Assembly (NCBI RefSeq): GCF_002305875.1
Contig: NZ_CP022098.1
Span: 10,230,001 to 10,294,000 of the forward strand
Source: Cystobacter fuscus
GTDB lineage: Bacteria > Myxococcota > Myxococcia > Myxococcales > Myxococcaceae
Reading direction: 5' to 3'
Length of the DNA: 64,000 nt
Position numbers and translations under genes: made by a program. Of the stretch, positions 1 through 14,152 are shown piece after piece. Within the stretch, counting starts at the first letter, position 1. Each line of letters begins with the position of its first letter. A model generated the notes under the pieces. That model saw only the letters and a program-made list of their open reading frames with translations, ran no database searches and was not told where the DNA came from.

Positions 1-1189
1 GGCTCGGCTCGGTCGCCGCGGGCGCCAGCGCGTCCAGCACCCAGCCCTCCCCCTCCTGGTGGAAGACCCACAGCTCGGTCCACCCCTCCAGCAGTTGCAC
101 CGCCACCGCCACCGCCGAGCCCTGGGCGGACCGCCGCACCGAGCCCGGCCACACCAGCCCATAGGTGCAGCGCTCGAAGAGGGCGGACCCTGGAGCCTTC
201 GCGTCCGCCAGGCGCAGGCACGTCTCTCCCGGCTGCCCCTTGGAGAGCGCGAGCACCGGCCCGGCCCCTGGCTGCTCCGAGGCGGGCTCGGACGCGAAGC
301 GCGAGGCACCCACCCGCACCGCGGCGGCCGCGTAGGCGGACTTGTCCTCCTCGGCCAGCTCCGCCTTGAGGACGCTCGCCAGCGACGCCACCGCGCGCTC
401 GCTGGCCTTCGCGCCCCGCTGCGCCTCGCCCCGGCGGGAGAGCTGGTAGGACAGGGCCGCGTGGACCTCGGCACGGCGCAGGTGGAGCCGGTTGGCCAGG
501 TACGCCGGCAGCCGACCCGCGTCCACCTGCTCCAGCACCGTGCTCCGCCACTCGTCGAGCGCCTGCCGCTCCAGCGGGTTCATCGCCGGGTCGATGCACT
601 CGGGCCGCGTCAGCGCGAGCGCCGCCCGGAGCCGCATCTCGGGGCTTCCACCGAGCGCCAGCACCCGGCGGAACGCCTCCCCGTCATAGCAGACGCGGGT
701 GCGGCCCTCGCGCTCGAAGCTGACGAGCTTCACCCCGTAGCTGGCCGCCACGTCGAGGTGCGCCGCCAGGGACGCGTCATTGCTCCTGTGGGAGGTGGCC
801 CGCCGGGCGAGCCGGTCCGCCATGGAGCCCAGTGCGTCGAACAGCTCCGGCCCCACCTGGGAGGCCGGTACCGCGCGCAGCAGCGCCGCCGCGTAGCCGA
901 TGCCCAGCGCCTCCGCGCCCGGCGTGTCCTCGAGGAACTCCACCACCGCCTGGAGCCGGGGCACGCTCGCCTCGTCGAGGTGGACGACGCGCACCTGCTG
1001 CTCGCGCACGTAGCCGGGGCGCTCGCGGCGGTGATCGTAGACCTGGATGAACCCCTGCCGTTCTCCTCGGACCTCCAGCCACTCTCCCTGCCAGAGGGTG
1101 GCCTGGCGGGGAGCGGAGTCCTGCGACGCGGCGCGCAGGGGCGCCTGGTCCTGCACCACGAGGGCGATGGCGACGAGCGTGGCGAGCAT
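1..1189 (-). CDS. Secreted SH3-like domain protein, 3' end cut by window
   Basis: Open minus-strand frame from an ATG at 1189 that runs off the left edge of the window with no stop, so at least 396 codons. It starts with a short hydrophobic segment (MLATLVAIALVV) that looks like a signal peptide. Residues about 32-70 (WQGEWLEVRGERQGFIQVY, then RPGYVREQQVRV) resemble a bacterial SH3-like fold. The rest is an alanine/leucine/arginine-rich helical region without a recognised motif. The start lies 4 bp after the stop of the SPFH gene at 1194, so the two genes are probably co-transcribed and translationally close. The role is unknown; a cell-envelope location is inferred from the signal-like N-terminus. 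Confidence 0.75.
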   Translation of the reverse strand, partial: MLATLVAIALVVQDQAPLRAASQDSAPRQATLWQGEWLEVRGERQGFIQVYDHRRERPGYVREQQVRVVHLDEASVPRLQAVVEFLEDTPGAEALGIGYAAALLRAVPASQVGPELFDALGSMADRLARRATSHRSNDASLAAHLDVAASYGVKLVSFEREGRTRVCYDGEAFRRVLALGGSPEMRLRAALALTRPECIDPAMNPLERQALDEWRSTVLEQVDAGRLPAYLANRLHLRRAEVHAALSYQLSRRGEAQRGAKASERAVASLASVLKAELAEEDKSAYAAAAVRVGASRFASEPASEQPGAGPVLALSKGQPGETCLRLADAKAPGSALFERCTYGLVWPGSVRRSAQGSAVAVAVQLLEGWTELWVFHQEGEGWVLDALAPAATEPS

Positions 1190-1193
1190 GTTC

Positions 1194-2540
1194 CTACTCC
1201 TCGGAGCCGGTGGTGTCGGAGTCCGTGTTCTCGGAGACCGCGGCCTGCGCCAGGGACGAGCCCTTCGACGAGCCGCCCGCGTACCGGGCCTCCTGGGGCT
1301 GTCCCAACAGGTTGCCGGCGATGAACCCGCCCGCCTGGGGCGGAGCGATGATGACTTGAATCTTGTCGGACAGCTTGTCCGCGAGCGTCTTCTGGATGAG
1401 CAGCGGGTTGCGGCTGATCAGCTCGGCGTCGCGAGCGAGCTGCTCGGAGGCCGCCTTGCCGGTGACATCCACGCGGTAGGCATCGGCCTCGGCGAGCTTG
1501 CGCCGGGCATCCGCCTCGCCGGCGGCCTCGATGCGGTGGGCCTCGGCCTCGGCGCTGGCCTGGGTGAGACGGGAGACCTTGGCGGCTTCGGCCTCCAGGC
1601 GCCGCTGTTCGATCTCCTTCTCCTTGAAGGGAAGAACGTGGCGCATGGCCTCGGCCTTGGCCTTGGCGGCGATGATCTCCTCGTTGCCAGCGGCCTCGGC
1701 GGCCTTCTCGCGCCGGACCTTGTCGGCCTCGGCCTCGAGCGCGGACTGCTTCACCTGTTTGTCCTTGAGCTCGAGCGTGTAGCGCATCTTCTCCGCGTTC
1801 AGCTCCTCGGCGAGCAGCACCTCCATGCCGGTACGGTACTGCTGGGGCAGGTCCACGTTGCCCAGCGTGACCGTGCGGACGATGACGCCATCGGCGGCCA
1901 ACAGGGGCAAGAGCTCGGCGGAGAGGTCCTGCTGGATCTTCACCCGGTGGGTCGAGAAGATCTCCCGGACCGTGTGCTGGGCGAAGTGGCGGCGGAGCAC
2001 GCCGTCGATGACCGGCTCGACGATGTCCCGGCCGATGTCCTCGGGAAGCCGCGCGGCCAGGGCGGGAATCCGCTCCGGGTCGAGCACGTAGCGGATGGTG
2101 ACCTCGACGCCGATGGACAGGCCCTCGACGGACTGGAAGGGGGCCGGATCCGTGGCGCGGGTGCTCCGGGTGGGCTGGTAGGTCTGGTCCTTCAGGCTGT
2201 AGCGGCTCAGCCGGTGGACCTGTGGCACCAGGAGGGCCCAGCCCTCACGCAGCTCGGCGACCTTGCCGGTGAGTCGGTTGACCCGGATGCCGACCTCGCC
2301 CGGCTCGATCATGCACACGGGTTGGGCAACCACCACGCCCGCCACCATCCCCGTCACCGCCAACCCGGCCATCACCCGGCGCCCGCGCTCGGCGTAGATG
2401 AGCCACCGGACCCGGCTGACCATCCCGCGTGTCGCCTCGCTGGCCAGGGAGCTCATCCTCCGGAGGAACTCGCCCCGTTTCTCCTCGCCGTGCTTCCGCT
2501 GCTCCTGCTGCTGCGTCTCGTTCTGATTCTGCTCGCTCAT
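1194..2540 (-). CDS. SPFH/Band 7 (prohibitin-like) membrane protein
   Basis: 448 residues. The chosen ATG (MSEQNQNETQQQ) has an upstream GAGAGG at good spacing; the frame stays open further upstream but that part is low-complexity and lacks a ribosome site. After a charged, Gln-rich N-terminus comes one transmembrane helix (VMAGLAVTGMVAGVVVA, about residues 60-76). A Band 7 domain follows (IEPGEVGIRVNRLTGKV, then VEVTIRYVLDPERIP), then a long Ala/Glu-rich coiled coil with repeated EAEA-type heptads (about residues 270-390), and a disordered Ser/Thr tail. SPFH proteins form ring-like membrane scaffolds that affect proteases or membrane microdomains. It is first in a minus-strand pair with the SH3-like protein, which may be its periplasmic partner (inference). 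Confidence 0.85.
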   Translation of the reverse strand: MSEQNQNETQQQEQRKHGEEKRGEFLRRMSSLASEATRGMVSRVRWLIYAERGRRVMAGLAVTGMVAGVVVAQPVCMIEPGEVGIRVNRLTGKVAELREGWALLVPQVHRLSRYSLKDQTYQPTRSTRATDPAPFQSVEGLSIGVEVTIRYVLDPERIPALAARLPEDIGRDIVEPVIDGVLRRHFAQHTVREIFSTHRVKIQQDLSAELLPLLAADGVIVRTVTLGNVDLPQQYRTGMEVLLAEELNAEKMRYTLELKDKQVKQSALEAEADKVRREKAAEAAGNEEIIAAKAKAEAMRHVLPFKEKEIEQRRLEAEAAKVSRLTQASAEAEAHRIEAAGEADARRKLAEADAYRVDVTGKAASEQLARDAELISRNPLLIQKTLADKLSDKIQVIIAPPQAGGFIAGNLLGQPQEARYAGGSSKGSSLAQAAVSENTDSDTTGSEE

Positions 2541-2710
2541 GAGTGCCCTCTCGGGATGAAGGGCAATGCACGTCGAGTGCCGGGCAGGCGAGCGAACGAG
2601 GCCAGAGGAGCGGGCCGTGGCGAGTGCCGAGAGGGAGCGCGAGGACGTGGTCGCACGGACACACCGCGTGGCTGGAGGAACCCACGGACACGTGCACGGG
2701 TGCGTCCTGA

Positions 2711-2851
2711 AACCCACGGGTGCCTACGCACCAGGAAGTGCGCCAGGGTGAGAAGTCCATCTTCACCTACGAGGTGGAACCCGTCACCCATCCCTCTTGT
2801 GCGTCTGGAGCCTCCTTTTCGAAGCGTTTCGTGCGTAAATCTTGCGCATAG
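2711..2851 (+). pseudogene. 3' stump of a lipoprotein gene (paralogue of the gene at 9846)
   Basis: In the plus frame containing the codons at 2738-2740, the peptide RQGEKSIFTYEVEPV matches the C-terminus of the intact lipoprotein at 9846-10748 (QQGEEFIFTYGVEPV) in sequence and in position relative to the end. The frame stays open to a TAG at 2849-2851. No start codon, signal peptide or upstream body of the gene precedes it; weak similarity (ERED-V-AR) may continue into 2620-2660 in a shifted frame. This is best read as the surviving tail of a duplicated gene whose 5' part was lost. The stump ends 40 bp before the ATPase gene of the RloAB-like pair, so the loss may have accompanied that insertion. 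Confidence 0.6.
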
Positions 2852-2890
2852 ACGCTCGAAACGGCTACGAGGGCTCCTTCGGAGGCTGCC

Positions 2891-4168
2891 ATGCTGATCC
2901 AGTTCCGCGTCGAGAACCACCGCTCGCTGCGCGACGAGCAGGTGCTCTCCCTGGTCGCCGCCAACCTCGGTGGCGCGGAGGATCCTCGGCTGCTCCGTCC
3001 CCCCGAGCTCGGCGAAGCGCTGCTGCCGGCCGTGGCGCTCTACGGCGCGAACGCCTCCGGCAAGAGCAATGTGCTCAACGCCCTTGCATTCATGCGCGAG
3101 GCCGTCCTCCGCTCCCACCGCTTCTGGGATCCGGAGGCGGGCGTACCCCAGGAATCGTTCGCGCTGTCGAGCAAGGCTCAGAAACCTTCACTCTATGAGG
3201 TGGACTTCCTCGTGGGCGGAGTGCGCTTTCGCTATGGCTTCGTCCTGAGTGCGGCGCGCATCGAGGAAGAGTGGCTTCATGCCTGGCCGCATGGGCGTAA
3301 GCAGCTGTGGTTCGAGCGCGAAGGGGACCGCTTCGATTTTGGCAAGCACCTGCACGGCGAGAACGAGACCATTCGCGGACTCACTCGCGTGAACAGCCTG
3401 TTCCTCTCGGCCGCCGCACAGAACAATCACGCCGCGCTCCTCCCTCTCTTTGGCTGGTTCCGGTCAGCCCACCTCGAGCTGCGCCGCGGCCCGCTCCTCG
3501 GGCTCGAGCCCTCACGGGCCGCATTTCTCGGAGACCTCTTCTCCGGGCAACTCGCCCTGTTCGAGGAGGACAATACGGCGCGGAAACACGAGCGTGAAGC
3601 CATCGTTCACCTCCTGCGCTCAGCGGACCTGGGCATCCTGGACATGAAGGTCGAGCTCCCGCGCCCGATTCTTCCGGGCAGGTTCGACCCCCGCAAAGTG
3701 GAGATTCTCCTGCGCCATCAGGCAGAGGCCGGGCACGAGGTCTGGCTTCCACTGGAGTGGGAGTCCGCTGGGACAGTCACCCTGCTCGGTCTTGCCACTC
3801 GGTTGGTGAGGATGCTGAGGCGCGGAGGACTCCTCTGTATCGATGAGCTGGAGGCGAACCTGCACCCTGCTCTTGGGTTTGAACTGTTGCGCCTCTTCCA
3901 AGATCCGCGGCACAACCCCAAGGGAGCGCAACTCCTCTTCACCACGCACGATACGAACCTGCTCGGCAACGTCCTTGGTGAACCGCCGCTGCGGCGAGAC
4001 CAGATATGGTTCACGGAGAAGGACCGGACTGGGGCCACCCAGCTGTATCCGCTCACCGACTTCCGGCCTCGCAAAGAGGAGAACCTGGAGCGTGGGTACC
4101 TCCAGGGCCGTTACGGCGCCATCCCATTCCTGGGCCAGCTCGTCATCGATCCAGAGGAGGAGCAATAG
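2891..4168 (+). CDS. AAA15/RloA-type ATPase of a putative anti-phage pair
   Basis: 425 residues. It begins MLIQFRVENHRSLRDEQ, the usual start of SMC/OLD-like AAA15 ATPases, with a GGAGG-type site about 7 bp upstream. Walker A is YGANASGKSN (51-60). Walker B with the following catalytic Glu is LLCIDELEANLHPA (314-327), and the switch histidine lies in FTTHDTNLLG near 351. It is followed two bases after its stop by an RloB-family gene. This ATPase plus RloB arrangement is known from restriction-linked loci (RloA/RloB) and from the lactococcal abortive-infection system AbiL. The ATPase probably senses infection and controls its partner (family knowledge plus inference). Codon use is less GC3-rich than in the surrounding genes, which fits horizontal transfer. 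Confidence 0.85.
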   Translation: MLIQFRVENHRSLRDEQVLSLVAANLGGAEDPRLLRPPELGEALLPAVALYGANASGKSNVLNALAFMREAVLRSHRFWDPEAGVPQESFALSSKAQKPSLYEVDFLVGGVRFRYGFVLSAARIEEEWLHAWPHGRKQLWFEREGDRFDFGKHLHGENETIRGLTRVNSLFLSAAAQNNHAALLPLFGWFRSAHLELRRGPLLGLEPSRAAFLGDLFSGQLALFEEDNTARKHEREAIVHLLRSADLGILDMKVELPRPILPGRFDPRKVEILLRHQAEAGHEVWLPLEWESAGTVTLLGLATRLVRMLRRGGLLCIDELEANLHPALGFELLRLFQDPRHNPKGAQLLFTTHDTNLLGNVLGEPPLRRDQIWFTEKDRTGATQLYPLTDFRPRKEENLERGYLQGRYGAIPFLGQLVIDPEEEQ

Positions 4169-4170
4169 AG

Positions 4171-4806
4171 ATGGTTTCAAGGCGACGCCACGATGAGCGC
4201 CCCATCCGGCGGCGCGGACCTACCCGTGAGCCCAAACGGCGCATCCTCATCGTTTGCGAGGGGGAGAAGACAGAGCGCGGCTATTTCAAAGACTTCCAGC
4301 GTGAGGTTCGCAACCCAGGCGTCCACGTGGAGGTGGCCAGCGAGACCGGGGAGCCCTTGCAGGTCGTCGAGATTGCAGTGCGCCTCAAGAAGAAGGCCGA
4401 GGGCGAGGCAAGGTCGCAGCACGACGACAACCTTCGCTGGGACGATGTCTGGGGGGTCGTGGACGTGGACGAGCATGCGAAGCTCGACGAGGCCCAGCAA
4501 CTGGCCTTGAAGAACGACATCGACCTTGCCATTTCCAATCCCTGCTTCGAACTCTGGGCGCTGCTCCACTTCCAGAAGCAGCGTGCCCATGTCGAGCGTG
4601 GCAAGGCCCAAGCCGTGCTGCGGCGCCACCTACCTGGTTACGACAAGGGGCTTGATCTTCCAAAGCTCCACCCTGGATATGGAAACGCCGTTCGCCGGGC
4701 GCAGGCGCTGGACGCAGAGGCGCAACGGCAGGCTGCACCGGGCCGCAACCCGACCACGGGTGTCTACCGGTTGACCGAGTCCATTCGTCAGGGAGGCAGT
4801 CCCTGA
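4171..4806 (+). CDS. RloB-family protein, partner of the AAA15 ATPase
   Basis: 211 residues starting at ATG 4171, two bases after the ATPase stop, with GAGGAG located inside the end of the ATPase gene. After a basic N-terminus (RRRHDERPIRRRG) come the family hallmarks: RILIVCEGEKTERGYF (24-39), WDDVWGVVDVDEH (about 90-102) and AISNPCFELWALLHF (about 120-134). The conserved Glu/Asp clusters recall Toprim-like metal sites, and a nuclease-like role is often proposed for RloB/AbiLii proteins but is not shown here. Length is normal for the family and both genes look intact, so the module is probably functional. The tight coupling suggests a fixed stoichiometry with the ATPase. Confidence 0.85.
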   Translation: MVSRRRHDERPIRRRGPTREPKRRILIVCEGEKTERGYFKDFQREVRNPGVHVEVASETGEPLQVVEIAVRLKKKAEGEARSQHDDNLRWDDVWGVVDVDEHAKLDEAQQLALKNDIDLAISNPCFELWALLHFQKQRAHVERGKAQAVLRRHLPGYDKGLDLPKLHPGYGNAVRRAQALDAEAQRQAAPGRNPTTGVYRLTESIRQGGSP

Positions 4807-4995
4807 GGGAGTGCCACTGAAGTGCACGGGCGAAGGCATCCCCCAAGGTCCGAACGAGGCACCTGCCCTTCTGTCGGATAGTCGAAAAAGAGCATTTCGA
4901 CCAGGCACCGGCATCGAGCATTCGGACAGCTCCTTGTTTGATGGAGCATGATCGGCCTGCATCGCCGTATCAACCCATGTTCTGGAGGAATGCTC

Positions 4996-6432
4996 GTGAA
5001 GATGATGAAGCGAGTGCTTGCGATTTGCTCCTTGCCGCTGGTGTCAGCGGCTTCCGTCTACGACTACCGTGCCGACCTGGCGAGCGTGACGATCAACAAC
5101 GGGCCGGTCTGGTACGATACGACGGGAGGAACGATTCAGGCGCATGGGGGCTCCGTCATCAAGGTGGACTCCACGTATTATTGGATCGGCGAAGACAAGC
5201 TCCATGATTCGGCGACGTTCAGGAACGTCGTGTGCTACTCCTCGCCCGACTTGAAGAACTGGAAATGGGTCAGCTACCCGCTGAAACCCAGTTCTCATGC
5301 CGAATTGGCGAGCAGCAAGATCGAGAGACCCAAGGTCATCTACAACCAGACGACCGGCAAATACGTCATGTGGATGCATTACGAGAACGCCACGGACTAT
5401 TCCCTGGGCCGGGTCGCGGTCGCCTCCAGCAATTCGGTCTGCGGCAGCTATACCTATCACGGCAGCTTCCGGCCGCTCGGCTACGAGTCGAGGGACATGA
5501 CCGTGTTCAAGGACGAGGACGGCAGCGCCTACCTGATGTCCGCCTCGAACTCCGGAACGGGGACCAACGGCTCACTCGCGTCCTTCAAACTGACGAACGA
5601 CTACTTGAACGTCTCCACCTTCCTCGGTTGGGTGGCCGAGAACGGACATCGGGAGGCTCCGGCGATCGCCAAGCAGGGCGGACGGTATTTCCTGATCACC
5701 TCGGGTGCATCTGGCTGGTATCCGAACCAGGCCAGATACATGACGGCCACCTCCATGAACGGACCGTGGTCGGCCGCGCAGAATCTGGGCAACAGCTCGA
5801 CGTTCTACTCGCAGTCCAATTTCATCCTGCCCGTGCAGGGCACGTCGGCGACGACGTACCTCTACATGGGAAACCGGTGGAATCCGAGCCGCCTCGGAGA
5901 TTCTCGCTACATCTGGCTCCCGCTGACCTTGAACGGCGCGAACGCAACCGCCTCCCTGGAATGGCGCAGTCAGTGGAACATCGACGCCGTGACAGGGGCT
6001 GTTTCGTATCCGAATCTCGTCAACCATGCCCTGGGGAAAACGGCGACGGCCAGCTCCTCCGCTTCTGGCTTCGCCGCGAGCCGGGTGAACGACGGCAATT
6101 ATCAGGCGGAATGGAAGGCGTCCGGCGTGACCTGGCCCTCCTGGTGGCAGGTCGATCTCGGTGCGACCCGGAACATCCAGGAGGTCGATATCTCGTGGTT
6201 TTTGTACAACGGCTCGGAAGCCTATCACCAATATCGGATCGAACACAGCACGAACGGCACGACCTGGACGACGATCGATAGAACGACGAATAAAACATAC
6301 GGCTTCACGACAGACCCGGTGAACTTCAACGCCCGGTACGTCCGTATCGTGCTCGTCAACGCAGTACTGTGGAACAATCCGAACAACTGGTACACGCCGA
6401 CTCTGTATGAAGTGCAGTTGCTCGGCGGTTGA
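4996..6432 (+). CDS. Secreted GH43-like beta-propeller glycosidase with CBM32 (F5/8 type C)
   Basis: The start chosen is GTG 4996, because GGAGG at 4984-4988 sits 7 bp before it; an ATG at 4990 is too close to that site and an ATG at 4948 lacks one. A signal peptide (KRVLAICSLPLVSA) leads into a five-bladed propeller region (about 25-330). Its signatures HGGSVIKVDSTYYWIGED, RPKVIYN and DMTVFKDEDGSAYL are typical of GH43 subfamilies acting on beta-1,3-galactan or arabinogalactan side chains. A C-terminal F5/8C/CBM32 domain (about 345-478) has the WWQVDLGATRNI motif and a late YVRIVLV strand. It probably trims galactose-containing polysaccharide outside the cell. GC3 is visibly lower than in neighbouring genes, suggesting acquisition. 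The exact substrate cannot be set from sequence alone. Confidence 0.85.
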   Translation: MKMMKRVLAICSLPLVSAASVYDYRADLASVTINNGPVWYDTTGGTIQAHGGSVIKVDSTYYWIGEDKLHDSATFRNVVCYSSPDLKNWKWVSYPLKPSSHAELASSKIERPKVIYNQTTGKYVMWMHYENATDYSLGRVAVASSNSVCGSYTYHGSFRPLGYESRDMTVFKDEDGSAYLMSASNSGTGTNGSLASFKLTNDYLNVSTFLGWVAENGHREAPAIAKQGGRYFLITSGASGWYPNQARYMTATSMNGPWSAAQNLGNSSTFYSQSNFILPVQGTSATTYLYMGNRWNPSRLGDSRYIWLPLTLNGANATASLEWRSQWNIDAVTGAVSYPNLVNHALGKTATASSSASGFAASRVNDGNYQAEWKASGVTWPSWWQVDLGATRNIQEVDISWFLYNGSEAYHQYRIEHSTNGTTWTTIDRTTNKTYGFTTDPVNFNARYVRIVLVNAVLWNNPNNWYTPTLYEVQLLGG

Positions 6433-6637
6433 GTTCGGCCAGGGGTCTCGAGCCCGGCGAAGCTGGTGGCGCGAGCCCGAACCGTCTCTCACGTGAGACG
6501 TGCGCTGGAGTAGGCTCGTCGCGCCTCCCGGCGATGCTCACTCGAAGGAGCGTGCCTGTGTCACATGGCCTACCGCTTGCTCACTGGCGCCGCGGGGACG
6601 ATTGACCGGGCCCGCCGCGCGCCTCACCCTGGCGGGC

Positions 6638-7495
6638 ATGGCACGGGACGAACAGGAACGAGAGGATGCCTTTCCCCGGGCACCCTCTCGGGAAGAGTGG
6701 GCGAGGATGAGCGAGGAGGAGCGGGTCCGGGTGGTGGAGGCCTTGCCCGGAGAGGTGACGTGGGACGAGATGGCGATGCCGGAGGGAGACCTGCACTCCC
6801 AGGCGAAGATGGGCGCGCTGCAGGCCCTCAAGGGGTATTTCTCCCGGCAACGGCGGCGGGTGTACCTGGGCACGGAGCTGCCGGTGTACTACCCCGCCGA
6901 GCGCCGTTTCGCTCCGGACCTGTTGGCCGTGCTGGACGCCGAGACACACCCTCGAAGCAAGTGGGTGGTGAGCCAGGAGGGCAAGGGGCTGGACTGGGTG
7001 CTGGAGGTTCACGTCGGCGGCGACCGGAAGAAGGACGCCGAATACAACGTGAGGCGCTACGCGCGGCTGGGCATCCCCGAGTACTTCATCTACGACCGGG
7101 CCCGTCAGCGGCTGGAGGGTTATCGGCTGCCGTCCATCGAGGCGAGGGAGTACGTCCCCATCACACCGGAGCAGGGTCGCTACGGCTCGGAGGTATTGGG
7201 GCTGGAGTTGCAGGTGGAAGAGGGGCGGCTGCGCTTCTGGGCGGGTCACGCGCTGTTGCTGGAGTACGAGGAGCTCATCGCCCGGATGCAGGAGATGATG
7301 GAGGGGCTGCAACAGCGCGCCGACGAGGAAGCCCGGCAGTTGGAGGCGGCGGAGCGGCTGCGCCAGGAAGCTGAGCGGCGTCTGGCGGACGAGACACGGC
7401 GTCTGGCGGACGAGACACGGCGGCGGGAGGAGTTGGAGCGCCGCCTCGCGGAGTCACAGGCCGAGCTGGAGCGACTCAGGCAGCGTGGGGTGTGA
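6638..7495 (+). CDS. Uma2-family putative restriction endonuclease-like protein
   Basis: 285 residues from the ATG at 6638; the frame is open upstream but that part has no protein-like character. The Uma2/DUF820 core (about 25-200) shows YYPAERRFAPDLLAVLD, then LDWVLEVHVGGDRKKD and NVRRYARLGIPEYFIYD, matching the PD-(D/E)XK-like pattern of the family. The last 70 residues are a Glu/Arg-rich coiled coil with a short tandem repeat (RRLADET twice). Uma2 proteins are abundant in myxobacteria and cyanobacteria, and their biological role is unsettled. It is a single gene with no modification partner nearby, so a restriction function is not implied. Confidence 0.85.
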   Translation: MARDEQEREDAFPRAPSREEWARMSEEERVRVVEALPGEVTWDEMAMPEGDLHSQAKMGALQALKGYFSRQRRRVYLGTELPVYYPAERRFAPDLLAVLDAETHPRSKWVVSQEGKGLDWVLEVHVGGDRKKDAEYNVRRYARLGIPEYFIYDRARQRLEGYRLPSIEAREYVPITPEQGRYGSEVLGLELQVEEGRLRFWAGHALLLEYEELIARMQEMMEGLQQRADEEARQLEAAERLRQEAERRLADETRRLADETRRREELERRLAESQAELERLRQRGV

Positions 7496-7549
7496 GCGGA
7501 GACACGGGGCGCGGGGGCTTCGTGTTATGCGCGGGAGGGGAGAGGTCTC

Positions 7550-8170
7550 ATGGATTGGCTCTGGAGTCCGGTCGGGATCGGCGTGCTGTGGCTCGTGCTG
7601 CACTGCGCTGACTATCTGCTCACCATCGCCACGGCGAGGTTGCGTGTCCGTGGGGACCTCACGGAGCGGGTGCGCTTCGGGGGCAGCCTCGAGCTCAATC
7701 CCCTCTTCGTGCGGGCGGTGGAGAAGGGGCAGTGGGTATCCCCGAGGTTCCTCTTGACGCTGGCACTTGGCGCCGTCCTGTTCCCCATGGTGGTGGCGTA
7801 CATCCAGTGGGTGGCGGAGGAGCTACAGGAGGGGGTGGCCGACAACCTGTCTGAGGCCATGTGTGGCGCGCTGGTCGTGACGCGCTTCGCGGTCATTTCC
7901 GTTCACCTGCAGAACCTCGTGCTCTTCCGCCGGATGCTTCATGTGCCCGAGGCGGCGAGCGTCCGCCTGAGCTACGACCGGGGCACGGTCATGATGGTGA
8001 CCCGTGCCCGGAAGTTCGAGATGGCGGCCTTCTGCGCGATCGCCGCCCTCGTGAGCGGCCGGCCCTTCTTCCTGGGAGGCCTGGCCGCGACGCTCGCCCT
8101 CGTCGCCGCGTTGTATCGCTGGGAGCGCCGTCAGGTGCCCTCCTCGACGGAGAGCAGACCTTCCACGTGA
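7550..8170 (+). CDS. Integral membrane protein of unknown function
   Basis: 206 residues with a strong GGGAGGGGAGAGG ribosome site before the ATG. Hydrophobic segments are at about 8-28 (VLWLVLHCADYLLTIATA), 68-90 (FLLTLALGAVLFPMVVAYIQWV), 108-128 and 160-195 (AFCAIAALVSGRPFFLGGLAATLALVAAL), giving four or five helices. A FGGSLELNPLF motif lies between the first two. It converges with the pectate lyase gene, leaving 21 bp between the stops. I do not recognise the family. Confidence 0.75.
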   Translation: MDWLWSPVGIGVLWLVLHCADYLLTIATARLRVRGDLTERVRFGGSLELNPLFVRAVEKGQWVSPRFLLTLALGAVLFPMVVAYIQWVAEELQEGVADNLSEAMCGALVVTRFAVISVHLQNLVLFRRMLHVPEAASVRLSYDRGTVMMVTRARKFEMAAFCAIAALVSGRPFFLGGLAATLALVAALYRWERRQVPSSTESRPST

Positions 8171-8191
8171 AGGGGCGTCGAGCCGCTGCGG

Positions 8192-9574
8192 CTACGGAGT
8201 CTCGAAAGCTCCCAGGTCGGGCGCCGAACCGTTGTAGGGCAGACCGACGTTGACCCCAGCGTTGACGAGGGCACTCGTCGATTTGAGGCGGAACAGGGTC
8301 GTGGCTGGCAGGCTCCCGTCCGGGTTGCGGGCGGCGGTCGCCAGGTTGGTGTCCAGGCTTTGGAAGTCGGCCGACGACGCCGAGAAGCCAGAGTTCCAGG
8401 AGTTCTTCTGCTCGGTGGAATTGGCGATGCTGTTCGAGGCACCGAGCGAGATGTTGTTCTTCAGGATGTGCTTCTGACCCGAGTTCACCGGGTTTCCGAG
8501 CCCGAAGTTGGTGCCGTTCTTGTAGGCGATCGAGTTGTAGATGATCACCCCACCGGTATTGTTGTTCTGGTCGAAACCCTTTTTCGGATGGCCGAAAGCC
8601 ACGCAGTTGGTCAATTGGTGATTGGCCTGCGCGTAGTTGCCACCGATCTTGAAGCCGTTACCGTTGCCGGTGAAGCCGCCGTAACCCCAGACGTCCACCC
8701 CATTGCGGAAGGCCCAGGAGTCCTTGAAGACAACCGTCTCGGGACTATCGAAGGCGTCGTAGCCGTCATCGGAGTTTTCCCAGGCCCGGCAACCGATGAA
8801 GACGTTACCGGGACCCATGGTTTGTTTGGGTCCGAAGCCATCGGCCATGCTGCCGAGCTTCTTCGGGTCGTAGTTCCGGAAGGCATCACAGTTGATCACC
8901 GTGGTATGATTGCCCCCCTTGTTGATCTCCAGGCCGGTGTTGCGGTTTTCATAGAAACGGCAATTCTCGAAAGTGTTGTAGGAACCAGTGACGTAGGCGC
9001 CCTGGTAGCCGGCCCGGGTAATATCAATCCCCTTGAAGGTCCAATAGCTACCGGTCACGTGGAAGCCGAAGGAGTCCTGAACCCAGGCCTGCTCGGGGAA
9101 GGAGAAGTCGAATACGGCCCTGGCGTTGTTGTAGGACGAAATGGTTATCCGTTTGTCGGATTGGCCGGATTTGGTGAAACCAATCGTGTTCTTCTCCCCA
9201 GAGGTATAGGGGATCGCGTACGTCCCGCCCTGAAGCAAGATGGTGTCCCCCGCCACGACCGCGGCGAGAGCGGTCTTGAAATCCCAGGCGCTGTCGAAAC
9301 CAGCGCCGGTATTGGTCGACTTTCCGGTGGGCGAGACATAATAGGTCCTGGCTGCGGCAGCGGTGGCTGTCGGCGCTGGGGTAGCATCCCGTCTATCGAC
9401 GTTGATACCCAGGCGCTCCGCGCCGCCCGCCGGAGGTTCCGCCGAAGCCGTCGGCTCGTCGAGCGAGAGCGTCTCGGGCTCCTCCGACCCCTCCGGCCCA
9501 CATCCCCCGAGCGAACATCCCGCGAGGACCAGGGAGAGCAGCGTGTAGCGCACGGATCTATTACGCATGATCAT
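8192..9574 (-). CDS. PL9-type pectate lyase lipoprotein (right-handed beta-helix)
   Basis: 460 residues from ATG 9574; an in-frame ATG at 9568 is equally close to the AGGAG site and cannot be excluded. The signal peptide ends in a lipobox (LSLVLAGC). A Ser/Pro/Ala linker follows, then a parallel beta-helix (about 95-455) opening with YYVSPTGKSTNTGAG. The conserved PL9 stretch MADGFGPKQTMGPGNVFIGC and then WENSDDGYDAFDS carries the Asp residues that bind calcium, and NGFKIGGNYA follows. PL9 enzymes cleave polygalacturonate by beta-elimination. As a lipoprotein it would be tethered to the envelope. Together with the GH43 and pectinacetylesterase-like genes it points to growth on pectic polymers. 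Confidence 0.85.
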   Translation of the reverse strand: MIMRNRSVRYTLLSLVLAGCSLGGCGPEGSEEPETLSLDEPTASAEPPAGGAERLGINVDRRDATPAPTATAAAARTYYVSPTGKSTNTGAGFDSAWDFKTALAAVVAGDTILLQGGTYAIPYTSGEKNTIGFTKSGQSDKRITISSYNNARAVFDFSFPEQAWVQDSFGFHVTGSYWTFKGIDITRAGYQGAYVTGSYNTFENCRFYENRNTGLEINKGGNHTTVINCDAFRNYDPKKLGSMADGFGPKQTMGPGNVFIGCRAWENSDDGYDAFDSPETVVFKDSWAFRNGVDVWGYGGFTGNGNGFKIGGNYAQANHQLTNCVAFGHPKKGFDQNNNTGGVIIYNSIAYKNGTNFGLGNPVNSGQKHILKNNISLGASNSIANSTEQKNSWNSGFSASSADFQSLDTNLATAARNPDGSLPATTLFRLKSTSALVNAGVNVGLPYNGSAPDLGAFETP

Positions 9575-9845
9575 GAATCTCCTGTTTTCACGGATATTCA
9601 AGCATGTCAGGTCAGTCCGTTCAAGAGCTGTCACGGAAACACCGCACTCCTGTTACATAAGGCTTCAGTGAAGGAGCCATAAGACACGTCTGACGAGGGA
9701 AAGGTATGCGCAGATGTTGCGCCATGACCGACCCGAGGCTCGGTGGGCGGGAAAACTGGAAATCCCCCGCACAGGGTCGACAGTGGACAGCAGGACTCCA
9801 CGAATCCGTCATGCTCCGTCCCGCGTGGACTACCCTGCGGGCGTC

Positions 9846-10748
9846 ATGAACTCATTGCTTCGCTCATCGTTGTCCGCCGCCCTGCTCACCGGGGTGTGCG
9901 CCTGCGTCACCTCCTCGACTTCACGCAAGCCGGTACCCGAAGGCGCGGTCGTCCTGCGGTTCGCGTGGCCGGAGCAACTCTCCGCCAGGGTCACCCACAC
10001 CCTCCTCCTCAGCGGCTCCCAGGGCCAGCGGACCTACTGGTGGTCGATGTTGCCAGGACCCGAAGAGGGACAGCGGCGGCTGCTCGTTCGAGAGGAGGCC
10101 GGTACCTCCCAGTCCGTGCTCTCCACGATGGCGGACCCCGAGAGTTCGATCATCTTCGACGCCCAGGGCGACTTCGTGAGCTACGAGGCGCACGAGGATT
10201 CGGACTCCATGGGCTTGCTGAACGCATTGCCGCTCAGTGCCGAGCAGGCCGCCGAGGTTCGCGAGCGGATGGATGCGGCGCGGGAGGACGTGGCCCGGGA
10301 GCGCTGGATGCAGCGCGTGGGGCGCTGGCGCGACGTCATGTTGGTGCCGGGAGAGACGGTGCGGACCAGGACTCGGATGTGGGTGGGGCAGAACGCCTTC
10401 GAGCGGGAGGAGATGGAAGCCGAGGAGCGCACCACGATCGAGACAGGAGTCGCGTGCTCGCTGGACGACACGGAGAAGCACTGTGTGCGGGTGCGCACGG
10501 TGACCGAGCCCCTCCAGCCATACCGGGCGTCTGATCCATGCGCGCGAGCCCGGGCCACCAAGCGCTTCGAACTCGTGACGGATCCGCGGACACTCCTGCC
10601 CTACCTGACGCGCTCGCTGAGCGAGTACCAGATGGACTGGTGCCGCGATGATGGGACGGTGCATACCCGGGAGATGCAGCAGGGCGAGGAGTTCATCTTC
10701 ACCTACGGAGTGGAGCCCGTCCCCCAAGGCACCTACTCACGGCGGTGA
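9846..10748 (+). CDS. Lipoprotein of unknown function (intact paralogue of the stump at 2.7 kb)
   Basis: 300 residues from ATG 9846, chosen because it opens a lipoprotein signal peptide (MNSLLRSSLSAALLTGVC). The mature part has short beta-rich segments (VLRFAWPEQLSARVTHTLLL, YWWSMLPG) and a helix at about 120-160. There are paired cysteines near 205-215 and 230-260 and a C-terminus ending QQGEEFIFTYGVEPV. The last element is shared with the remnant at 2711-2851, so this gene belongs to a small lineage-specific family. No enzymatic motif is visible. It stands alone, with a 270-bp spacer from the divergent pectate lyase gene. Confidence 0.75.
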   Translation: MNSLLRSSLSAALLTGVCACVTSSTSRKPVPEGAVVLRFAWPEQLSARVTHTLLLSGSQGQRTYWWSMLPGPEEGQRRLLVREEAGTSQSVLSTMADPESSIIFDAQGDFVSYEAHEDSDSMGLLNALPLSAEQAAEVRERMDAAREDVARERWMQRVGRWRDVMLVPGETVRTRTRMWVGQNAFEREEMEAEERTTIETGVACSLDDTEKHCVRVRTVTEPLQPYRASDPCARARATKRFELVTDPRTLLPYLTRSLSEYQMDWCRDDGTVHTREMQQGEEFIFTYGVEPVPQGTYSRR

Positions 10749-10864
10749 GGGGCTCGGCTCGCGAGCCCGGCGGCCTTCTTCTTCGAGCGGAAGCAAGCCG
10801 GGCAGGTGTTCGCCCAACCCGGGGAGCCATCGCCTGGCACCAAGATCTGGCCTTCCCAAGGCAC
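10733..10864 (-). CDS. Possible small CxxC peptide or gene remnant
   Basis: Minus frame of 43 codons from a GTG at 10864, or an open frame reaching further upstream. It reads QILVPGDGSPGWANTCPACF, followed by three lysines and AAGLASR. This is protein-like, with a CxxC pair and GC-rich third positions, in a place where the plus strand has no gene. It overlaps the last 16 bp of the converging lipoprotein gene. No convincing ribosome site was found, so it may be the tail of a lost zinc-binding protein rather than a live gene. Confidence 0.3.
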   Translation of the reverse strand: MPWEGQILVPGDGSPGWANTCPACFRSKKKAAGLASRAPHRRE

Positions 10865-10934
10865 TGACCGGCGAACGAGGCGCGTGCATAGCGTGAAGGC
10901 GGAGAGGCACCGTGCCCTCCAGGAGTGCCCCGCC

Positions 10935-11744
10935 ATGTCCTCGCCCGAACCCGTGGCCGTCATCCTGTCGCGTGGGGAACTCGATGCGGTCCTGTTCGAC
11001 TTGGATGGAGTGGTGACCCGGACCGCCCGGGTGCATGCCGCCGCGTGGAAGCGGCTGTTCGACGCGTACCTCCGCGAGCATTCAACGGACCCGGACCGGG
11101 ACTTCCAGCCCTTCACGCAGGAGGACTATCGGCGGTACGTGGATGGCCGTCCCCGGCTGGAAGGCATCCGCTGCTTCCTGGCGAGCCGGGGCCTGTCCCT
11201 CCCCGAGGGCGCCCCCGACGATGGTCCGGACGCGGAAACAGTCCACGGGCTGGGAGCGCGCAAGAACGCCTGGTTCCTCGAGGAGCTGGAGCAGCGAGGC
11301 GTGGAAGTGGATCCGGCGGCGGTGGCGCTGCTGGAGCAGGTGCGAGCGGCGGGCCTGCGCACAGCGGTGGTGACCTCCAGCCGCAACGGCGCGGCGGTGC
11401 TGCGGCTGGGAGGCTTGGAGCACCTGTTCGACGCCCGCGTGGATGGAGTGGAGGCTGGGAAGCTGGGCCTCGCGGGCAAGCCCGCCCCCGACACGTTCCT
11501 CGAGGGCGCACGGCGTCTGGGGTCGGAGCCTGCTCGCACCGCGGTGTTCGAGGACGCCCAGGCGGGAGTGCGGGCGGGGCACCTCGGAGGCTTCGCGCTC
11601 GTCATCGGGGTCCGCCGCTCGGGAGAGACGGGCGCCCTGCTGCGGGCTGGCGCGGACGTGGAGGTGGAGGAGCTGTCCGCCGTGCGCGTGGAGGGGGCAG
11701 CACCTCCGCGTCCGGAGTTCCACGCCGAGGGAGCGATGCCATGA
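10935..11744 (+). CDS. pgmB: Beta-phosphoglucomutase (HAD family)
   Basis: 269 residues; the ATG at 10935 has AGGAG nine bases upstream. HAD motif I is AVLFDLDGVV with the nucleophile and general acid at Asp22 and Asp24. Motif II is VVTSSRNG, the Lys motif is GKPAPDTF and motif IV is VFEDAQAG. The cap domain contains the GRPR-EGI region typical of beta-PGM. It isomerises beta-glucose 1-phosphate to glucose 6-phosphate. The following GH65 gene overlaps its stop (ATGA), the usual pairing in which the phosphorylase makes beta-glucose 1-phosphate from a disaccharide and this enzyme channels it to glycolysis. Confidence 0.9.
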   Translation: MSSPEPVAVILSRGELDAVLFDLDGVVTRTARVHAAAWKRLFDAYLREHSTDPDRDFQPFTQEDYRRYVDGRPRLEGIRCFLASRGLSLPEGAPDDGPDAETVHGLGARKNAWFLEELEQRGVEVDPAAVALLEQVRAAGLRTAVVTSSRNGAAVLRLGGLEHLFDARVDGVEAGKLGLAGKPAPDTFLEGARRLGSEPARTAVFEDAQAGVRAGHLGGFALVIGVRRSGETGALLRAGADVEVEELSAVRVEGAAPPRPEFHAEGAMP

Positions 11745-14152
11745 GTCGGGAACAATGGCTGTTCACCTATGACGGCTTCGAGCCCGCGAGGGAAGGACTG
11801 CGCGAGGCGCTCTGCTCGCTGGGCAATGGCTACTTCGCCACGCGCGGGGCCGCGCCCGAGGCCCACGCGGATGAGACGCACTACCCGGGGACGTACCTCG
11901 CGGGCGGCTACAACCGGTTGAAGACGGACCTGGCCGGGCGGGTAGTGGAGAACGAGGACCTCGTCAACATGCCCAACTGGCTGCCCCTGACCTTCCGGCT
12001 CGAGGGCGGCGACTGGTTCGACGTGCGTGCCGTCACCCCGCTGGAATACCGGCAGGTGCTGGACCTGGAGCGGGGGCTGCTGCTGCGCACGGTGCGCTTC
12101 GAGGACGCGGCGGGCCGCAGGACGCGCCTGGAGCAACGCCGGTTCGTGCACATGGGCGACAAGCACCTGGCGGGACAGGAGCTGGTGCTCGTGCCGGAGA
12201 ACTGGAGCGGGCGCGTCCAGGTGCGCTCGGCGCTGGATGGGCGGGTGGTGAACGCGGGCGTGGCCCGCTACCGGCAGCTCAATGGCCAGCACCTGCGACT
12301 GCTCGTGGCCGAGGAGGTGGATCCGGAGACGCTGCTGCTGGAGGTCGAGACGGTGCAGTCACGCCTGGAGGTGGCGGAGGCGGCGCGCACCCGGCTGTTC
12401 GTGGAGGATCACCCGGCGGCGCTCCTGAAGACGCTCCTCCAGGAGGAGGGATTCCTCGCGCACGAGTTCACCCTGACGCTGGCCGAGGGTCAGCGCCTCA
12501 CGGTGGAGAAGGTGGTGGCGCTGTACTCGTCCAAGGATCCCGCCGTGTCCGAGGCGGCGATGGAGGCGCGGGACGCGCTGAAGACGGCACCCGGGCGCTT
12601 CGAGGAGCTGGTGGCCACACACGTCCAGGCATGGTCGCACCTGTGGCGCCGGGTGGACATCGAGCTGGAGCTGGACGGGGAGGACGAGCCCCAGCGCGTG
12701 CTGCGCCTGCACATCTTCCACCTGTTGCAGACGGTGTCCCCACACAGCATCGACCAGGACGTGGGCGTGCCCGCGCGCGGCTGGCACGGCGAGGCCTACC
12801 GGGGGCACATCTTCTGGGACGAGCTGTTCATCTTCCCCTTCCTCAACCTGCGGCTGCCCTTCCTCACCCGCGCCATCCTGCGCTACCGCTACCGGCGGCT
12901 GGGGCGGGCGCGCCAGGCGGCACGCGAGGCGGGCTTCCAGGGCGCGATGTTCCCCTGGCAGAGCGGCAGCAACGGCCGCGAGGAGAGCCAGCGGCTGCAC
13001 CTCAATCCCCGCTCGGGGCGGTGGGTGGAGGACGTGACGTGGCTGCAACGGCACATCAACGCGGCCGTCGCCTACAATGTCTGGCAATACCATCGGGCCA
13101 CGGCCGACTCGGAGTTCCTCTACTACTACGGGGCCGAGATGATGCTGGAGCTGGCGCGCTTCTGGGCGAGCCTGGCCCAGTGGAATCCCGTGCTCGGGCG
13201 CTACGAAATCAAGGACGTGATGGGGCCGGACGAATACCACACGGGCTACCCGGACCGGCCCGCGCCCGGGCTGGACAACAACGCCTATACCAACCTCATG
13301 GCGGTGTGGGTGTTGAGCAAGGCGTTGGAGACCCTCCACCTGCTGCCGCGCGAGCGCCGCGCGGAGCTCCTCGAGTTCTTGCGGCTGGAGCACTCGGAGC
13401 TCAAGCGCTGGGACGACGTGAGCCGGAAGATGCGGCTGGTGTTCCACCAGGACGGGGTGCTCAGCCAGTTCGAGGGCTACGAGCGCCTCCAGGAGTTCGA
13501 CTGGAAGACGTACCGCGCGCGCTACCCGGACATCCATCGGTTGGATCGCATCCTGGAGGCCGAGGGGGACTCGCCCAACCGCTACAAGCTGTCGAAGCAG
13601 GCGGACGTGCTGATGCTCTTCTATCTCTTCTCGGCCGACGAGCTGCGCGAGCTCTTCGAGCGGCTCGGCTACCCGTTCGAGCCGGAGATGATCCCGCGCA
13701 CCGTGGATTATTACCTGCAACGCACCTCCCACGGCTCGACGCTCAGCGGGGTGGTGCACTCGTGGGTGCTGGCGCGCAGTGACCGGGAGGCCTCGTGGAG
13801 GCTCTTCAACGAGGCCCTGCGCAGCGACATCTCGGACGTGCAGGGCGGGACGACGCCCGAGGGCATCCACCTGGGCGCCATGGCGGGCACGGTGGACCTG
13901 CTACAGCGCGCGTACACGGGCCTCGAGGTCCGGGCGGGTGTGTTGCACTTCAATCCCCACCTGCCCCAGGAGTTGAAGCGGCTGAAGTTCTCGCTGCGCT
14001 ATCACAAGCATTGGGTGGAGGTGGAGCTCACTCCGACCGTGCTGCGGCTCACCGGCCTGTGGAGCCCCCTGGAGCAGCCGCTGGAGGTCTGTGTGCGGGG
14101 CGAGTGTCTGCGGCTCCAGTCCTGCGAGACCCAGGAGCTGCGCATCGCCTGA
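11741..14152 (+). CDS. GH65 disaccharide phosphorylase (maltose/trehalose/kojibiose type)
   Basis: 803 residues, translationally coupled to pgmB by an ATGA overlap. It has the N-terminal beta-sandwich (FTYDGFEPAREGLREALCSL, then GNGYFATRGA), and a helical linker. The (alpha/alpha)6 barrel contains GWHGEAYRGHIFWDELFIFP and the catalytic acid Glu498 in VMGPDEYHTG. The phosphate-site region is TLSGVVHSWV, and a small C-terminal beta domain ends the protein. Length and motifs fit inverting GH65 phosphorylases. Maltose, trehalose, kojibiose and nigerose enzymes cannot be told apart from the motifs visible here. The coupled beta-PGM supports phosphorolysis rather than hydrolysis. Likely cytoplasmic, since no signal peptide is present. 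Confidence 0.88.
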   Translation: MSREQWLFTYDGFEPAREGLREALCSLGNGYFATRGAAPEAHADETHYPGTYLAGGYNRLKTDLAGRVVENEDLVNMPNWLPLTFRLEGGDWFDVRAVTPLEYRQVLDLERGLLLRTVRFEDAAGRRTRLEQRRFVHMGDKHLAGQELVLVPENWSGRVQVRSALDGRVVNAGVARYRQLNGQHLRLLVAEEVDPETLLLEVETVQSRLEVAEAARTRLFVEDHPAALLKTLLQEEGFLAHEFTLTLAEGQRLTVEKVVALYSSKDPAVSEAAMEARDALKTAPGRFEELVATHVQAWSHLWRRVDIELELDGEDEPQRVLRLHIFHLLQTVSPHSIDQDVGVPARGWHGEAYRGHIFWDELFIFPFLNLRLPFLTRAILRYRYRRLGRARQAAREAGFQGAMFPWQSGSNGREESQRLHLNPRSGRWVEDVTWLQRHINAAVAYNVWQYHRATADSEFLYYYGAEMMLELARFWASLAQWNPVLGRYEIKDVMGPDEYHTGYPDRPAPGLDNNAYTNLMAVWVLSKALETLHLLPRERRAELLEFLRLEHSELKRWDDVSRKMRLVFHQDGVLSQFEGYERLQEFDWKTYRARYPDIHRLDRILEAEGDSPNRYKLSKQADVLMLFYLFSADELRELFERLGYPFEPEMIPRTVDYYLQRTSHGSTLSGVVHSWVLARSDREASWRLFNEALRSDISDVQGGTTPEGIHLGAMAGTVDLLQRAYTGLEVRAGVLHFNPHLPQELKRLKFSLRYHKHWVEVELTPTVLRLTGLWSPLEQPLEVCVRGECLRLQSCETQELRIA

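Follow-up and report, generated by a model that had tools for sequence, protein, structure and literature searches.

Two adjacent genes near the left end of the 64,000-nucleotide stretch of Cystobacter fuscus DNA analysed here (the window) resemble an anti-phage module and stand beside a remnant of a lipoprotein-like gene, which raises the question of what kind of system the pair forms and how it came to lie at this place. We conclude that the pair is probably an AbiL-type (RloA-RloB) anti-phage module with a predicted RloB nuclease that the ATPase would restrain, placed at a variable junction, and that the gene fragment beside it looks like what remains from an earlier rearrangement. Features are given below in window coordinates; G000 denotes the own genome, a single contig of 12.35 Mb that encodes a single RloB, and G001, G002 and G003 denote relatives of the same genus.

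1194-2540, minus strand: SPFH/Band_7 gene, a flanking gene outside the system, within the conserved left block (73.7 bits against Pfam Band_7, cut-off 23.6)
2719-2790, plus strand: fragment like the 3'-proximal part of a lipoprotein-like gene (78% identical to its own paralogue over 72 bp, E 1.3e-7, blastn in the own genome; 81% to the G001 orthologue, E 2.4e-10)
2720: left edge, the last base common to G003 (blastn, junction sequences)
2891-4168, plus strand: abiLi-like gene for an ABC-type ATPase of 425 aa, the predicted sensor and restrainer (AAA_21, AAA_15, AbiLi, ABC head fold, motifs)
4171-4806, plus strand: abiLii-like gene for an RloB protein of 211 aa, the predicted Toprim nuclease effector (PF13707, AbiLii, acidic motifs, model pLDDT 93)
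4837: right edge, the first base of the right block common to G001 (window 4837-9627, 91% to G001)
9846-10748, plus strand: full lipoprotein-like gene, the fragment's paralogue (start chosen at M45 of the ORF from 9714)

Assignment of the gene pair

The earlier note on this DNA, made from the sequence alone, had described two tightly coupled genes of a known anti-phage type, AbiL/RloAB-like, and both parts of that description hold. The two ORFs lie on the same strand with the ATPase first and a gap of 2 nt between them, and each follows a purine-rich segment that could act as a ribosome-binding site. In searches with Pfam and PADLOC models, the first protein passed the cut-offs of AAA_21 (121.7 bits, cut-off 27) and AAA_15 (39.6 bits, cut-off 32.1) and matched AbiLi best (PDLC02335, E 2.7e-98; next-best AriA, E 3.6e-33), and the second passed PF13707 with the full model covered (133.7 bits, cut-off 31.5) and matched AbiLii (PDLC02337, E 7.6e-27). 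The note had named failure of the RloB gene against PF13707 as a refutation of its reading, and the gene passed that test. NCBIfam gave no match for the RloB protein. The Pfam and PADLOC matches, the gene order and the motifs described below support the AbiL/RloAB-type identity.

AbiL was described in 1999. The Lactococcus lactis system consists, like the pair here, of AbiLi and AbiLii in the same gene order, but it is plasmid-borne (excerpt of PMC10440598) and the present pair is chromosomal; the AbiL models were matched in part (AbiLi over 49-292 of 326 positions, AbiLii over 21-86 of 170). The feature shared with the RloA-RloB genes of type I restriction loci is an RloB protein over the Pfam cut-off, and unlike at those loci, the neighbours scanned here included no gene recognisable as part of a restriction-modification system. 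In PARIS, too, an ABC-type ATPase and a Toprim-like protein, which RloB is predicted to be, are encoded separately (passages of PMC12409363). It differs in that RloB is not a DUF4435 protein (a PF14491 match is absent from RloB and from the own genome, and the profile match is weak) and in that AriA models fall below AbiLi for the ATPase by the E values given above. Septu and retron PtuA proteins have a similar ATPase head fold (Z 17.4-18.9), but their partner is the HNH protein PtuB and the partner here is RloB.

The pair is a further, ordinary member of the known AbiL kind, sited at a variable junction, and opens no new kind of system. A text search of one literature collection returned, among the matches listed, none that combined myxobacteria with AbiL, and the earlier remark that myxobacterial versions are little studied is plausible within that literature. 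A well-formed AbiL from a myxobacterium widens the range of sequences in the family and offers well-defined residues for mutation.

Relatives and distribution of the pair

A scan of 84,980 genomes with the RloB protein yielded at least 420 confirmed candidates, of which the best 80 were retained. These 80 loci come from planctomycetes, acidobacteria, proteobacteria, cyanobacteria, Bacteroidota-type and archaeal records, and their RloB proteins are 27-49% identical to the own protein over the aligned proteins in alignment A1 (72 of the best 80 loci plus the own protein, after removal of near-duplicates and broken ORFs). In 79 of these best 80 loci of other genomes, RloB is immediately preceded on the same strand by a separate AbiLi-like ORF, which in 73 of the 79 is at least 370 aa long; at the one exception (L061), the sole match is the RloB ORF itself.

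Among 193 relatives of the host the distribution is patchy, and 10 have an RloB that exceeds the Pfam cut-off. The Pfam search had a positive control, in that the own genome and others match; a search of seven relatives with the RloB protein gave no match in any of them, with no positive control. Within the genus (G000-G003) RloB is over the cut-off in G000 only, the G002 match falling below it. The earlier note had said that the same pair in all related strains would count against its reading, and this is not the case. Ten non-self RloB loci were compared among host relatives, and an AbiLi relative lies within the stretch in seven of them; none was found in L048, L051 and L052, whose stretches are short and of which L052 has an RloB below cut-off.

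Conserved residues, predicted folds and proposed mode of action

Conservation in the ATPase was read from alignment A2 (53 of the best 80 loci plus the own protein, filtered in the same way). Walker A is represented by G52, G57 and K58, a signature-like motif by E291-S292-x-G294-T295 and Walker B by D318 and E319, followed by H353. All named residues up to D318 are kept in 54/54 aligned rows, E319 in 53 and H353 in 51, and the Walker A and B motifs are intact, as had been noted. When the predicted structure (pLDDT 88.8) was compared with the PDB, it matched Rad50 (Z 20.5), retron Ec83 PtuA (Z 18.9) and Septu PtuA (Z 18.2), and PtuA was also matched by the ATPase profile (E 9e-06). From the model, the protein is clearly predicted to be a stand-alone ABC-type head of the Rad50/PtuA/AriA kind.

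RloB residues G31, T34, E35, D98, F126, E127, W129, Y157 and T196 are invariant in the 73 rows of A1; E30 is kept in 72 rows, and D100 is D in 67 and E in the other six. The acidic set E30, D98 and D100, and also E127, combines conservation with a confident model (pLDDT 93.0, pTM 0.86) of alternating strands and helices, in which D98 ends strand 92-98. The first three stand in Toprim order and fit E...DxD, which we take to be the order of the Toprim metal ligands.

The structure and profile searches made here showed the Toprim relation of RloB only weakly. Foldseek of the model against the PDB returned no match at E 0.001 or better. With VIA-align the top match was 2p62, a hypothetical protein (Z 8.7 over 157 residues); OLD Toprim regions, aligned over 147-149 residues, reached Z 8.0 (6nk8, 149 residues), 7.5 (6njv) and 7.3, and lumazine synthases tied with them (Z 7-8.5 over 110-125 residues). 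Profile comparison was carried out with OLD (28/30 loci) and DUF4435 (8/9 loci) sets and gave RloB the low probabilities of 8.9% against OLD-like Toprim and 15.4% against DUF4435, with reversed controls at 0.4% and 1.8%, respectively; the OLD-like Toprim and DUF4435 profiles matched each other at 87.7%. In these low-probability alignments RloB CEGEKTE is paired with OLD VEGxSE, and RloB DxD with DUF4435 DxD. Sequence searches of the PDB yielded 0 matches with the single RloB protein and unrelated weak matches only with its profile. AriB is absent among the PDB matches listed for either model, which says nothing on relatedness. A published HHpred comparison relates RloB to OLD_TOPRIM (excerpt of PMC10440598); this and the motif order make it likely that RloB is of the Toprim type, with a metal site like that of Toprim proteins.

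The likeliest mechanism is drawn by analogy from PARIS, in which AriB, a tRNase of the Toprim type, is held by a hexamer of AriA and let go only on the sensing of a phage protein (passages of PMC12409363). In the same way, the ATPase would assemble and hold the RloB nuclease in check, a phage product would alter the ATPase, and RloB, then freed or switched on, would cut nucleic acid, with tRNA as the single most plausible substrate on the example of AriB in PARIS; growth would stop and phage spread would be prevented. A Clostridium algidicarnis RloB-type toxin with an AAA antitoxin is among the pairs in neutralisation assays (PMC10440598, in part), and Fusobacterium AbiLii is toxic in Escherichia coli (PMC3985639, in part). 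Against the proposed mechanism, Fusobacterium AbiLi had no antitoxic effect in E. coli, and neither AbiLi nor AbiLii of L. lactis was toxic there (both from the same excerpt of PMC3985639, 2014). The main competing explanation is an ATP-regulated DNA nuclease in the style of OLD or Gabija, which would cut phage DNA and not RNA. Of the named nuclease folds matched by the RloB model, that of OLD Toprim domains came closest, and OLD and GajA cut DNA (excerpt of PMC10568477); the two-gene layout, however, is that of PARIS, whose AriB cuts tRNA (PMC12409363, same passages), and we hold a DNA nuclease to be a possible but less probable account.

The junction and the history of the pair

The pair sits about 100 bp to the right of the lipoprotein-gene fragment. 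What the earlier note had called the 3' stump of that gene is a real match of 72 bp and is not a complete 3' end: it spans residues ~316-337 of 344 (as protein, 18 residues at 67%), is open at both ends, and is without the last codons and the stop codon. The full paralogue lies at 9.8 kb as had been reported, and has no Pfam or NCBIfam family. Since the full genes of the own genome and G001 are 92% identical to each other over 961 bp, compared with 78% and 81% for the fragment against them, the fragment is, judged by sequence divergence, an older duplicate and not a recent copy. The fragment reads on the plus strand with the pair to its right; residues 1-315 therefore went missing on its left, where the upstream region of the SPFH gene adjoins it directly at 2720, and on the side of the pair no more than the last few codons could have been lost.

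Identity across the SPFH block is 96% in G001 and G003 and about 86% in two further relatives, G010 and G030. The last base shared with the window is 2747 in G001, 2720 in G003 and 2717 in both G010 and G030, and the sequences part there; RloB was not found in any of these four, which share or nearly share the left edge. The first ~26 bp after the left edge are alike in G000 and G001 (0/2000 shuffles as good), and the G001 stretch alone, compared with the lipoprotein gene, was no better than chance (11% of shuffles).

These data bear on the claim that the pair landed in, and removed, a duplicated gene, that is, that it entered an intact duplicate of the lipoprotein gene and eliminated the greater part of that copy. 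A true fragment of that gene does lie 100 bp to the left of the pair. However, what was lost had lain beyond the fragment as seen from the pair, the edge at 2720 recurs in siblings where RloB was not found, and G001 keeps the ~26 bp like the fragment's start. We regard such an insertion as highly improbable; it was rejected because of the way the fragment is oriented and because siblings share the left edge. Nor was a full lipoprotein gene at this site, or an empty site (flanks without the pair or another insert), seen among the relatives compared.

In G000, the left edge is followed by the fragment, the AbiL pair and then the right block from 4837. The corresponding G001 interval (L053:11357-15022) holds a methyltransferase gene into which an ISAzo13-type transposase is inserted, then a small lipoprotein-like ORF and a short-chain dehydrogenase, and after these the right block. 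Since the right block and the ~26 bp are common to both genomes, one interval differs between them, and either state may be the older. The pair might be older in this lineage than it looks, if the last ancestor that G000 and G001 share already had it and G001 lost it as the segment with the methyltransferase, insertion sequence and dehydrogenase arrived. The shared right block (4837-9627) and ~26 bp favour such a history, which we nevertheless consider unlikely, with RloB not over the cut-off in any of the three other genomes of the genus.

G003, G010 and G030 differ from the window on the right side too. A patatin-like gene follows the SPFH gene in G002, G010, G030 and G075, and is found elsewhere in G000, G001 and G003 (in G000 at 9.377 Mb, about 0.85 Mb away). 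With the gene elsewhere in those three genomes, the left edge would most simply be a rearrangement breakpoint in their ancestor. Because the edge recurs in siblings where RloB was not found and G001 keeps the ~26 bp, the loss of the lipoprotein gene looks like an older rearrangement.

In G003 two ORFs that match no family come after the edge; about 1.7 kb from it, on the opposite strand, there follows another ATPase-partner pair (L054:8080-9887; PADLOC PDC-M07A, E 2.5e-145, and PDC-M07B, E 6.1e-41). Two such pairs beside one junction are suggestive, and two cases are few. That the junction at ~2720 serves in this lineage as an exchange site for small ATPase-effector defence modules (AbiL in G000, PDC-M07A/B in G003) seems to us doubtful, well short of an even chance; as a variable junction it is a small lead to other defence genes in the genus.

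Traces of transfer were sought in composition and in flanking elements. The GC3 values of the two genes (0.755 and 0.791) rank second and sixth lowest among 30 ORFs hand-picked from 39, so the earlier observation of a weaker GC3 bias than in the surroundings stands as a ranking, but other genes are as low, and GC3 is weak evidence of transfer. No tRNA was found in window 1-14000, and none of the ORFs scanned next to the pair in G000 was recognisable as a transposase gene. The best direct repeat spanning the pair (14 nt, 93%) joins 2714-2727 at the left edge to 4754-4767; it was rejected as a target-site trace, its second copy lying inside RloB, and is probably due to chance. Between the two flanks, the repeat shared is no longer than 9 nt.

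Three further observations concern the neighbourhood and G003. To the left of their SPFH blocks, both G000 (at G000:C1:10227561-10228323, before the start of the window) and G003 carry an uninterrupted relative of the split methyltransferase gene. The right block common to G001 contains a Uma2 gene at 6500-7495 (Pfam: putative restriction endonuclease; weak PADLOC match to PDC-S03), which is also present in G003 at another place. G003 further encodes a DUF4435 (AriB-like) protein (L218, G003:C16:58403-59113).
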